Origin: Leptospirales bacterium | GTDB taxonomy: Bacteria; Spirochaetota; Leptospiria; Leptospirales; Leptonemataceae | Direction of reading: 5' to 3' | DNA: 64,000 nt | Assembly: GCA_019694655.1 (NCBI GenBank) | Contig: JAIBBN010000014.1 | Coordinates: 1 to 64,000 of the forward strand | Shown here: positions 13,307 through 15,658 of the stretch, piece after piece | Layout: every line of letters begins with the position of its first letter | Position numbering within the stretch: position 1 is the first letter of the stretch | Program-made: the position numbers and the translations under genes | Notes under the pieces: model-generated | Seen by the model: only the letters and a program-made list of their open reading frames with translations | The model's database searches: none | What the model was told of the DNA's origin: nothing

Positions 13307-13870
13307 ATGCTTTCCATATACATAACTTACAATCCCAGTTCGGAGCTGGAACAGAGTCTCGCAATGCGTCTATTCACGGTCGGCGTCGCGCAAGGATTTC
13401 GCGTGTATTTGCCGGATCGAACCTTCGGGCCGCAGCTGGCAAATGAGACCAGGAACCGAATTCAAATGGCTGAATGGGTGGTCTGCTTTTCAATGGGTTC
13501 CCTGGCAGAGTCTGTTCATCAGGAACTTGATTATGCATTTCAGACAAAGCATGACAGGTCACGGATCATCGTTGTATATGATCGAGTCCGGAATCTTGAG
13601 GGGCCGGCGGTGGCGCACTTCAGCGAATTCTTTTTCGACGCCAATACAATGCAGGTCGATGAACTCATAAGCCAGATGCTGAAGACCATCGGAACCAGAG
13701 ACCGGGATACGAAAGAGCGGGAACGGCTGAAATCAGAGAACAAAGCTCTCAAAGCCTTTTTGCTCGCAGGGCTTGGGATTCTCGCAATTAGCGCCCTTTC
13801 TTCCGAGCCAGGAGATCGACCGAAGAAACGATCAACGACAAAGAAACGAACGAGCAAAAGGCGCCGCTGA
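13307..13870 (+). CDS. TIR-like domain protein with a C-terminal membrane anchor
   Basis: 187 residues. The first about 95 look like a TIR fold: an opening strand Ser-Ile-Tyr-Ile-Thr-Tyr, helix A, a second strand Gly-Phe-Arg-Val-Tyr-Leu, then Trp-Val-Val-Cys-Phe-Ser and a helix with Gln-Glu-Leu-Asp-Tyr-Ala whose Glu73 sits where the NAD-cleaving Glu lies in bacterial TIR enzymes. After a charged coiled-coil stretch (about 130-148) comes one transmembrane helix (149-165) and a very basic tail. TIR proteins in bacteria are commonly NADase effectors or NAD-derived signal producers in anti-phage defence. G+C is near 50%, lower than the surrounding core genes, suggesting transfer. It opens the cassette; the PIN gene follows after 4 bases. 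TIR is my best reading but is remote; another Rossmann-like fold is possible. Confidence 0.6.
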   Translation: MLSIYITYNPSSELEQSLAMRLFTVGVAQGFRVYLPDRTFGPQLANETRNRIQMAEWVVCFSMGSLAESVHQELDYAFQTKHDRSRIIVVYDRVRNLEGPAVAHFSEFFFDANTMQVDELISQMLKTIGTRDRDTKERERLKSENKALKAFLLAGLGILAISALSSEPGDRPKKRSTTKKRTSKRRR

Positions 13871-13874
13871 TCCG

Positions 13875-14474
13875 ATGCCTGCGGCCGTTATCGACAATGA
13901 CGTTCTGGCGGCCTTTGCGGACATCCAAGAAGCTACCGGCCACGACCTCCTGGCGCTGTCTCGCGCGCTATTGCAGCACATCCATGTGCCGGTCCAGGTA
14001 AAAGCGGAATATGAACGTCAGAGGCATCGGAGTCCTGTTCGTGCAAGACTTCTGGATTCGCTGACTCCGAACGGCACTAGAATCTCGATTTGCACAAGTT
14101 ACGATTCTGCGGTTGTGGCGGACCTGGAGCTTGTCATAGACCCCGGAGAAGCGGGCGCCATCAGTCAGGCGCAGAAATTGAACGTACCGCTCTTCTTGAG
14201 CAATGATCGGAGGGCTCGCATAACGGCAGTCCAATATGGGATCAGCGTGCTCTCAGGGTTTTCCCTGCTTGCCGGATTGCACCTGGCCGGAGAGATCATA
14301 GATGCCGGAATCCTTGTCGAATACGACAAAAAAGTGCCTGTTCGTCTGGACACTGTTCCGCGCCTATACGCCGAGACGAACACGACTCTCGGATTAACTC
14401 TGGACGGCGCCAGGGTAGCACGACTGGCGTCGCAGACTGTTCATGCAATTCGAGATCGCCGAGGAGCCAAATGA
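13875..14474 (+). CDS. PIN-domain ribonuclease-like protein
   Basis: 199 residues from ATG 13875, four bases after the TIR-like stop; the frame is open further upstream, but a start there would overlap that gene. The PIN acidic residues are all visible: Asp7 and Asp9 in Val-Ile-Asp-Asn-Asp-Val, Glu45, Glu92 in Asp-Pro-Gly-Glu-Ala-Gly-Ala-Ile, and Asp111 in Leu-Ser-Asn-Asp-Arg-Arg-Ala-Arg. PIN domains are metal-dependent RNases, typically VapC toxins of about 130 residues. This one carries about 60 extra C-terminal residues and has no adjacent VapB-like DNA-binding antitoxin. Its position between a TIR-like and a membrane gene suggests an effector or regulator in a multigene system rather than a plain toxin-antitoxin pair. 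Confidence 0.75.
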   Translation: MPAAVIDNDVLAAFADIQEATGHDLLALSRALLQHIHVPVQVKAEYERQRHRSPVRARLLDSLTPNGTRISICTSYDSAVVADLELVIDPGEAGAISQAQKLNVPLFLSNDRRARITAVQYGISVLSGFSLLAGLHLAGEIIDAGILVEYDKKVPVRLDTVPRLYAETNTTLGLTLDGARVARLASQTVHAIRDRRGAK

Positions 14475-14626
14475 TCGCGACCACTATAGTCCTTCAATAC
14501 CTCGCACAAAAGGTGAAGACGTTTACCGCCGCGTGTGCGTCGCTGAACGCCACGAAAGGAATACTGCTTGACTCATTGAAGTATCCCTCATTCGAACGAG
14601 GATGCATTTGGCGCTGGCCTCTTTGA
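14471..14626 (+). CDS. Possible 51-residue small protein coupled to the PIN gene
   Basis: An ATG at 14471 overlaps the PIN stop as ATGA and opens a 51-codon frame ending at TGA 14624-14626. The product is mildly hydrophobic and Thr/Ala/Leu-rich with Trp residues at the end; no family is recognised. The four-base overlap is the coupling pattern used across this genome, which favours translation. The short length, and the 34 bases without an obvious function before the next gene, leave room for it being chance or a decayed remnant. Confidence 0.35.
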   Translation: MIATTIVLQYLAQKVKTFTAACASLNATKGILLDSLKYPSFERGCIWRWPL

Positions 14627-14660
14627 CGCCTGAAGAATTCGGTCTTCGCCGGGAAGTAGC

Positions 14661-15470
14661 ATGACTGTGTCCAGGAAGGCGGAAGTTGTCCAGTTACAGC
14701 GCCGGCTGCAGAAGAGTCGGTTAGCGAAGCTTATTAGGGCGCCACGCGCCATGGCCAATCGCCCAACTATTGACATTCTCAATTACGAGGAGGAGACGGA
14801 AAAAAGTCTTCACAGCATTCTAAAAGATATTGCCGATATCGATGTTCTGAAAGACATATATGCTTTCTTCAAAGATTACCGCTCGCACTTCTATCAGCGC
14901 AAGGGCTGGTACGACGCTCGCCTTGCAACACTGCAGGGATTGACGACTTTTGTTCTGACCTCCGCAGCTGCATTCATCGGCCTCTTGATTCAAAGGGAAA
15001 TTGAGCTCGACATAGCGAACGGAATTGCGGCATCCTTCTTTAGCGCGGCAACTGTGGTTTTGATTGTGACGATGGTCATGATTGTTTTCGATCTCCGGCC
15101 GCGCGCAGATTACCGAGAGCTTAGAGAACTCGACCTTATTGACGCCGGGCGAGTGAAGTACAGGGCGAACTTTTATAGAAAGAAAATCGCAATCTTAGCC
15201 CTGCAGTCCAGTTCCAATGGGTTGCGCATTGAAGAGCGGTACCGGCTTCTACAGTGGCTTTTCCGTCTTTTTATTCTGGCATTTGTCCCATTGCTCGTCT
15301 CAGGCGCTGTGCTATTCGGACGGAGCAAAGATAAAGATCAGACTGACTACACGCAGACTCCGGCAAAGATTCAAGTAGTTGACGCTCGATCCGTGCAGCA
15401 GCAAATTGAGCGTATGCGACTGGAAATTGAGGCCTTACGTGCCAGGATACCCCAGGGCCCTGGAAGGTAG
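14661..15470 (+). CDS. Three-helix membrane protein with C-terminal coiled coil
   Basis: 269 residues from ATG 14661 (GGGAAG upstream); ATG 14751 is an alternative start. The first about 90 residues are soluble and helical. Predicted membrane helices lie at about residues 93-111, 123-144 and 200-220. Between the second and third is a basic, Tyr/Arg-rich segment. Residues about 238-262 form a heptad-like coiled coil. The soluble helix plus hairpin layout recalls SLATT-type and other small membrane effectors of nucleotide-signalled defence systems, but I see no decisive motif. It is followed after 2 bases by a small Lys-rich gene. G+C is below that of core genes. Confidence 0.7.
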   Translation: MTVSRKAEVVQLQRRLQKSRLAKLIRAPRAMANRPTIDILNYEEETEKSLHSILKDIADIDVLKDIYAFFKDYRSHFYQRKGWYDARLATLQGLTTFVLTSAAAFIGLLIQREIELDIANGIAASFFSAATVVLIVTMVMIVFDLRPRADYRELRELDLIDAGRVKYRANFYRKKIAILALQSSSNGLRIEERYRLLQWLFRLFILAFVPLLVSGAVLFGRSKDKDQTDYTQTPAKIQVVDARSVQQQIERMRLEIEALRARIPQGPGR

Positions 15471-15472
15471 TC

Positions 15473-15658
15473 ATGGAAACGAAAGCTAAAAAAGCCAAAA
15501 AGGCCGCTCAAGAAGAAGAGCAAGAGTTTCAAAGCTTCAGCGCGCAGGGCGGATTACGCAGTTTTACGGAAGGCCTGGAACGGGTACAGTTGGAGCGTTA
15601 CCAGCCGTTGTTTAAACGCAATGCCAAAGAGTCCGATTTGGAAAAGAAGAGCCACTGA
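15473..15658 (+). CDS. Small Lys/Glu-rich protein at the end of the TIR-like/PIN cassette
   Basis: 61 residues from ATG 15473, two bases after the previous stop, with GGAAGG just upstream. The N-terminus is Lys/Ala-rich, followed by a Glu/Gln run, a Phe/Gly patch and a charged tail. It has no membrane segment and no recognised family. The spacing and strong ribosome site make it likely to be a real cotranslated partner of the membrane protein, perhaps a regulator or adaptor. That role is inferred only from position. Confidence 0.6.
   Translation: METKAKKAKKAAQEEEQEFQSFSAQGGLRSFTEGLERVQLERYQPLFKRNAKESDLEKKSH

Follow-up and report, generated by a model that had tools for sequence, protein, structure and literature searches.

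This study concerns a pair of adjoining genes in DNA from a Leptospirales bacterium (GTDB family Leptonemataceae; NCBI GenBank assembly GCA_019694655.1). The 64,000 nucleotides (nt) analysed, positions 1 to 64,000 of the forward strand of contig JAIBBN010000014.1, are referred to here as the window. Between positions 13307 and 15658 the window holds five open reading frames (ORFs) on the + strand, separated in order by a 4-nt gap, a 4-nt overlap, a 34-nt gap and a 2-nt gap. This is the tight, same-strand layout that had been described in an earlier reading made from the letters of the DNA (the sequence-only reading), in which all of the ORFs were taken to be parts of one defence cassette. The conserved unit is genes 1 and 2 only, as follows.

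13307 to 13870, + strand: TIR-like gene, 187 amino acids (aa), with a TIR/NDT-superfamily domain predicted by fold model and profiles
13875 to 14474, + strand: PIN-domain gene, 199 aa, with acidic residues D7, E45, E92 and D111; matches the PADLOC candidate family PDC-S70

A TIR-like gene lies directly before a PIN gene at four distant loci, in the same order in all four. These are the window, a second genome of the window's family (G006), a metagenome-assembled genome of Turneriella parva (G030) and the Leptospira interrogans plasmid pLiSL47. Co-occurrence in other genomes, named in the sequence-only reading as a check on the cassette, is found for genes 1 and 2 at three other loci but not for genes 3 to 5. 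The two genes overlap by 32, 38 and 14 nt at three loci, with the 4-nt gap in the window. The TIR-like proteins are 174–203 aa long. Pairwise identity among the four copies is 24–52% for the TIR-like proteins and 18–42% for the PINs, the window PIN being only 18–22% identical to the other TIR-linked PINs. Given these low identities, the linkage of the two genes has outlasted much divergence. The G006 and Turneriella copies are mutually nearest in both protein families, though G006 belongs to the window's family; transfer or hidden paralogy may lie behind this.

Among 392 Spirochaetota genomes, three contain a TIR-like relative (one being the window's own), each with a PIN gene directly downstream; with a profile of four rows, relatives are found in 3 of the 48 genomes of the window's class. 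The reach outside Spirochaetota was gauged by a single scan of genome contigs with the TIR alignment, and the one locus returned was the known Turneriella contig. In the plasmid collection, pLiSL47 was the sole match for the queries P0009, P0010, P0012 and P0013. Nothing was found there for P0001, scans of viral contigs gave no TIR-PIN relative, and phage records gave no match for P0007 or P0009; these searches need close matches, so the three negatives are weak evidence. Matches of P0012 to 24 Pseudomonas phage records were rejected as noise (E 0.1–0.5 among the 20 matches listed).

The product of gene 1 has a domain spanning about residues 1–136, a hydrophobic C-terminal segment at about 146–167, and then a tail rich in K and R. 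The hydrophobic segment is present in all four TIR-like proteins and a K/R-rich tail in three of them. The AlphaFold2 model, built from three sequences, has a mean predicted local distance difference test score (pLDDT) of 75.7, with values above 80 over residues 1–90 and of 83–94 over residues 1–80. The top match of the model among PDB structures by Foldseek is TIR-STING (E 4.6e-5). By VIA-align the top chain is the RPV1 TIR (Z 14.1, root-mean-square deviation 2.6, 137 residues aligned), with the SPARTA TIR at Z 14.0. The model therefore points to the TIR-like fold that had been claimed for the first gene, and the unrelated fold that would have spoken against it was not seen. Pfam TIR_2 matches three of the four proteins below its cut-off (E 1.5e-4 for that of the window, 4.4e-4 and 8.5e-3) and gives no match for the Leptospira protein. 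Residue E73, singled out in the sequence-only reading, proves invariant across the four copies and, by sequence alignment, occupies the position of the conserved, catalytic Glu of TIR domains, in the helix that follows the third strand. Searches of PDB sequences were uninformative: the TIR profile drew eleven matches at noise level, including SARM1/TIR-1 at E 1.1, while P0001 drew nothing and P0007 two noise matches.

The comparisons of fold and profile also bear on a different assignment, in which gene 1 would be an NDT/DNPH1-type enzyme that hydrolyses nucleotides, not NAD+ (nicotinamide adenine dinucleotide), and would form with the PIN a pair that degrades nucleotides and RNA. The NDT-fold chains MilB (Z 13.2) and DNPH1 (Z 13.1) lie within about 1 Z of the best TIR, which is in the range of a tie. 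Similarly, when the four-row profile was compared with 17 TIR_2 and 16 NDT domains from related genomes, the outcome was a tie, at 85.3% (E 6e-6) versus 85.7% (E 5.5e-6), with sets of PIN and UPF0175 proteins both below 1%; the TIR_2 and NDT sets match each other at 92.8%. However, in three of the four proteins Pfam lists TIR_2 and does not list NDT, the Foldseek top match is a TIR, and a three-row profile favours TIR (93.5% versus 84.3%), as does global alignment (74.8 versus 67.9). We consider an NDT/DNPH1-type enzyme distinctly unlikely. Within the TIR/NDT-superfamily fold that the model predicts, TIR is preferred over NDT, not proven. Since TIR and NDT nearly tie and the conserved Glu of each profile lines up with E73, we use the label TIR-like and suggest a shared Glu of the N-glycosidase type.

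For gene 2, the PIN domain put forward earlier is upheld by two lines of evidence. All four TIR-linked PINs match PDC-S70, with best E values of 2.9e-9 in the window and 3.7e-14, 3.3e-20 and 2.7e-9 elsewhere, and the acidic residues D7, E45, E92 and D111 have counterparts in the other three PINs, the fourth residue after a shift of one position in the alignment. For the window PIN, Pfam offers just PIN_8 (E 0.0032, below the cut-off), and it assigns the other three to no PIN family; a search of PDB sequences with the PIN profile found nothing. As far as residues can tell, both putative active sites, E73 of the TIR-like protein and the acidic residues of the PIN, are intact.

What usually stands before such PINs is a different gene. 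A profile built from three TIR-linked PINs gave 46 matches in Spirochaetota that are not TIR-linked. The 27 that had loci were examined and the 19 without a locus were left out. Directly upstream, UPF0175 was recognised by Pfam in 25 of 26 scanned ORFs, and a profile built from the upstream ORFs found it at 26 of the 27 loci; most of these UPF0175 ORFs overlap the PIN gene by about 4 nt. No TIR-like ORF was found at the 27 loci, and the upstream-ORF profile found no UPF0175 at the TIR-PIN loci. According to PMC6929052, UPF0175 proteins are putative DNA-binding antitoxins whose partner is a PIN toxin. The TIR-PIN loci share with the UPF0175-PIN operons (COG2886/DUF3368, VapBC-like) two genes with a small overlap or gap, the PIN gene in second place, and related PIN domains. 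They differ in the upstream partner, which is a UPF0175 protein of about 90 aa in those operons and here a TIR-like protein of 174–203 aa with a hydrophobic segment near its tail. An unrooted tree of 30 PINs splits the TIR-linked ones, four in number, from the 26 others with support of 98/94. Locus L026, in which the PIN frame is broken by a stop, was excluded from the tree, and the duplicate loci L003, L004 and L005 were excluded both from it and from the analysis of upstream ORFs.

Since the nearest Spirochaetota PINs have UPF0175 in the upstream slot and the TIR-linked PINs branch apart from them, we propose that genes 1 and 2 together form a conflict module of two genes with the UPF0175-PIN (VapBC-like) layout, in which a TIR-like protein with a hydrophobic C-terminal segment sits in the antitoxin slot. 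We put the probability of this reading, with the mechanism outlined below, at about 0.5. On the computational side, the pair is kept at four loci with the order and overlap of UPF0175-PIN operons, related PINs, intact putative sites and a conserved hydrophobic segment.

A mechanism can be outlined as follows. The PIN would be an RNase toxin. Through translational coupling, the TIR-like protein would bind the PIN and block its activity at or near the membrane. Upon phage infection or another stress, the TIR domains may cluster and, once clustered, cleave an N-glycosidic bond, most likely that of NAD+. This cleavage would free the PIN, leading to growth arrest. The weakest step of the proposal is that the TIR restrains the PIN rather than activating it. 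It is tempting to go further and regard the pair as an immune module in which a TIR-like enzyme at the membrane stands in for the DNA-binding antitoxin and controls the PIN toxin directly. Such a module would tie RNA cleavage to N-glycosidic signalling of the NAD+ type, and it would move between leptospiral lineages partly on phage-like plasmids. We hold this fuller version tentatively, as a somewhat unlikely one.

Several points weigh against the two-gene conflict module. The unit is rare, just four loci being known. None of the four TIR-like proteins reaches the curated cut-off of Pfam TIR_2 (28 bits), and the Leptospira protein is without the Asp of the VYLPDR motif. The hydrophobic segment in all four proteins agrees with the membrane anchor claimed in the sequence-only reading, but true spanning of the membrane by a cytosolic TIR is uncertain because the K/R-rich tails would fit the periplasm badly. 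The window PIN and the Leptospira PIN have long branches (3.19 and 2.35), and branch length could account in part for the 98/94 split. Since an unrooted tree is silent on which partner came first, to speak of replacement is to infer it. Finally, defence-type or mobile genes lie near all four copies; this is a raw count rather than an enrichment over matched random loci, and it is in keeping with the defence role suggested earlier.

A plainer possibility is a type II toxin-antitoxin system that serves the stability of a mobile element, the TIR-like fold being inactive and acting as a binding scaffold alone, with no anti-phage role. The operon layout, the plasmid copy on pLiSL47 and the patchy distribution would all be consistent with it. 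Against it, E73 and the hydrophobic segment are kept although the TIR-like proteins are just 24–52% identical, which suggests that the protein is more than a scaffold, and we consider this explanation improbable.

The surroundings of the other loci bear on the chief rival, in which a TIR product switches the PIN on. In such a Thoeris-like system, the TIR-like protein would sense infection and make a nucleotide signal of the cyclic ADP-ribose type, which would activate the PIN RNase and, in certain loci, an effector encoded nearby, for example SIR2 or a membrane protein. At the Turneriella locus (L046 1402-2466, + strand), a gene matching SIR2_2 (E 8.1e-8) begins 18 nt beyond the PIN gene and is possibly co-transcribed with the pair; it has no SLOG match. 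The conserved E73, the TIR fold modelled for gene 1 and the multi-span membrane gene downstream in the window also favour activation, as do the phage TIR genes that, according to PMC9503650, adjoin 2TM SLATT effectors. Those phage pairs resemble the window in having a TIR gene near a membrane-protein gene. However, the window's membrane gene matches no SLATT family in Pfam at E <=1 and is confined to the window. Moreover, Pfam recognises no ligand-binding domain in the PIN proteins, and at the other three loci neither Pfam nor inspection of ORFs revealed a SIR2 gene immediately behind the PIN; a Leptospira gene about 1.1 kb past the PIN has a weak PADLOC SIR2 match (E 1.6e-5). Thoeris itself (PMC11204291) likewise has a TIR protein and a second, possibly effector, protein in one operon, but here the partner is a PIN and not a SIR2-SLOG or TM-macro ThsA. 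No PADLOC Thoeris model was matched, and ThsA is not among the genes of the window. On balance, we regard the Thoeris-like explanation as unlikely.

At the other two loci the neighbours are as follows. Within 10 kb of the G006 pair there are a PDC-M11A protein (E 3.4e-136) and partial subunits of a type I restriction-modification system; inspection by eye also picked out transposase-like ORFs and genes resembling FtsZ/FtsA. On pLiSL47 the pair comes after phage-type genes for a tail fibre, an endolysin and spanins, and before a DRT-like reverse transcriptase. The latter (L044 13207-17438, - strand) is RT_UG5-nitrilase-like (E 2e-42) and is adjoined by a DEDDh exonuclease gene; the two are possible DRT-type defence genes. 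As a separate observation on this plasmid, a stretch of about 14 kb, from a replication initiation factor gene to a helix-turn-helix gene, is present twice (L050, 31-52 kb of the record). The protein accessions are identical in both copies, which may be a tandem duplication or an assembly artefact.

Each part of the TIR-PIN pair is of a known kind. PDC-S70, which all four PINs match, is a single gene in PADLOC, in contrast to the fixed TIR-like partner at these loci. PMC12988326, an archaeal defence paper, presents PDC-S70 as a single-gene PIN nuclease candidate, with experimental validation pending for most PDC families. The nearest printed association that we saw is the family of TPR-GreA/B-C-PIN conflict systems, which, according to PMC8195603, combine a PIN core with variable effectors that include TIR and SIR2. 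Those systems fuse the domains to TPR and GreA/B-C, whereas here there are two separate genes, and Pfam gives no TPR or GreA/B-C match at the TIR-PIN loci. We found no description of a TIR-PIN gene pair in the open-access literature, to which the search was confined. If the TIR-like protein does control the PIN, two widespread parts of immunity, TIR enzymes and toxin-antitoxin RNases, would be joined in the smallest possible unit. The antitoxin slot of a toxin-antitoxin operon would then have been given over to an enzyme, perhaps an effector in its own right, and the candidate family PDC-S70 would gain a definite partner and a testable trigger.

The remaining ORFs of the window locus, and the gene pair upstream of it, are as follows.

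14471 to 14626, + strand: 51-aa ORF, a cassette member in the sequence-only reading; probably not a gene
14661 to 15470, + strand: gene for a protein of 269 aa that has three hydrophobic segments; neighbour in the same direction, outside the conserved unit
15473 to 15658, + strand: charged, K/E-rich ORF of 61 aa, possibly a gene; relatives not found
12426 to 12824, + strand: HEPN-domain gene of a HEPN-MNT pair (Pfam HEPN, E 1.2e-18); neighbour, outside the unit
12817 to 13164, + strand: MNT nucleotidyltransferase gene of the same pair (Pfam NTP_transf_2, E 1.7e-10; PADLOC PDC-S09, PDC-M05A)

In the 51-aa ORF the G+C by codon position is 0.46/0.48/0.58, as against 0.55-0.67/0.35-0.44/0.55-0.57 in the other four ORFs, and searches of Pfam, PADLOC, NCBIfam and PHROGs gave nothing for it. 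On these two grounds it is probably not a gene and drops out of the proposed cassette, which leaves 186 nt between the PIN gene and the membrane gene. No relative of the membrane gene was found in 60 other related genomes, and it has no match in the plasmid collection. Two partial matches in 295 other genomes (E 0.007-0.009), inside frames of >1000 codons, were set aside as noise, and weak Pfam matches (SAM_DprA at E 1.4e-4, below the cut-off, and others) as unreliable. Its match to PADLOC PycTM (E 0.0035) covers a hydrophobic stretch alone, and its structure model, from the single sequence, is poor (mean pLDDT 49.4). For the Lys-rich 61-aa ORF, no relative was found in 40 other genomes. None of genes 3 to 5 was detected at the other three TIR-PIN loci, apart from a 30-residue match of P0002 at E 0.10.

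The HEPN-MNT pair (12426-13164) ends 142 nt upstream of the TIR-like gene and had not been listed in the sequence-only reading. The block from 12426 to 15658 is missing upstream of a conserved SLT gene at all 19 related loci examined (about 1.5 kb of flank; 22 relatives matched, 19 with loci), while 13 of these loci have the window's next gene after the SLT gene. This arrangement fits insertion. A scan for repeats gave no convincing flanking ones. The G+C of the five ORFs is, in order, 0.51, 0.56, 0.51, 0.50 and 0.48, compared with a mean of 0.597 (standard deviation (sd) 0.029) for the 45 mechanical ORFs of >=200 aa in the window, an uncurated set that includes antisense ORFs and those of the cassette itself. 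The claim of G+C clearly below that of the neighbours accordingly fits the other four ORFs better than the PIN gene, which is just about 1.2 sd low. Promoter-like sites number 2, with 1.9 expected, and terminator-like sites 8, with 4.7 expected (sd 2.2).

The tight co-directional spacing, the low G+C and the absence of the block from the related SLT loci would be in keeping with four or five genes acting jointly as a multi-effector cassette, as first suggested. However, the lack of genes 3 to 5 at the other three TIR-PIN loci, and of convincing relatives of them in the genomes searched, leads us to reject the five-gene system as the conserved unit, and joint action of the cassette is highly improbable.

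Elsewhere in the window, a second MNT-like nucleotidyltransferase lies at 37402-37794 on the - strand (PADLOC PDC-S09, E 1.9e-14). To the left of the HEPN-MNT pair, a frame on the - strand at 2-12061 is free of stops over 4020 codons and reaches the left end of the contig, which suggests a giant gene.

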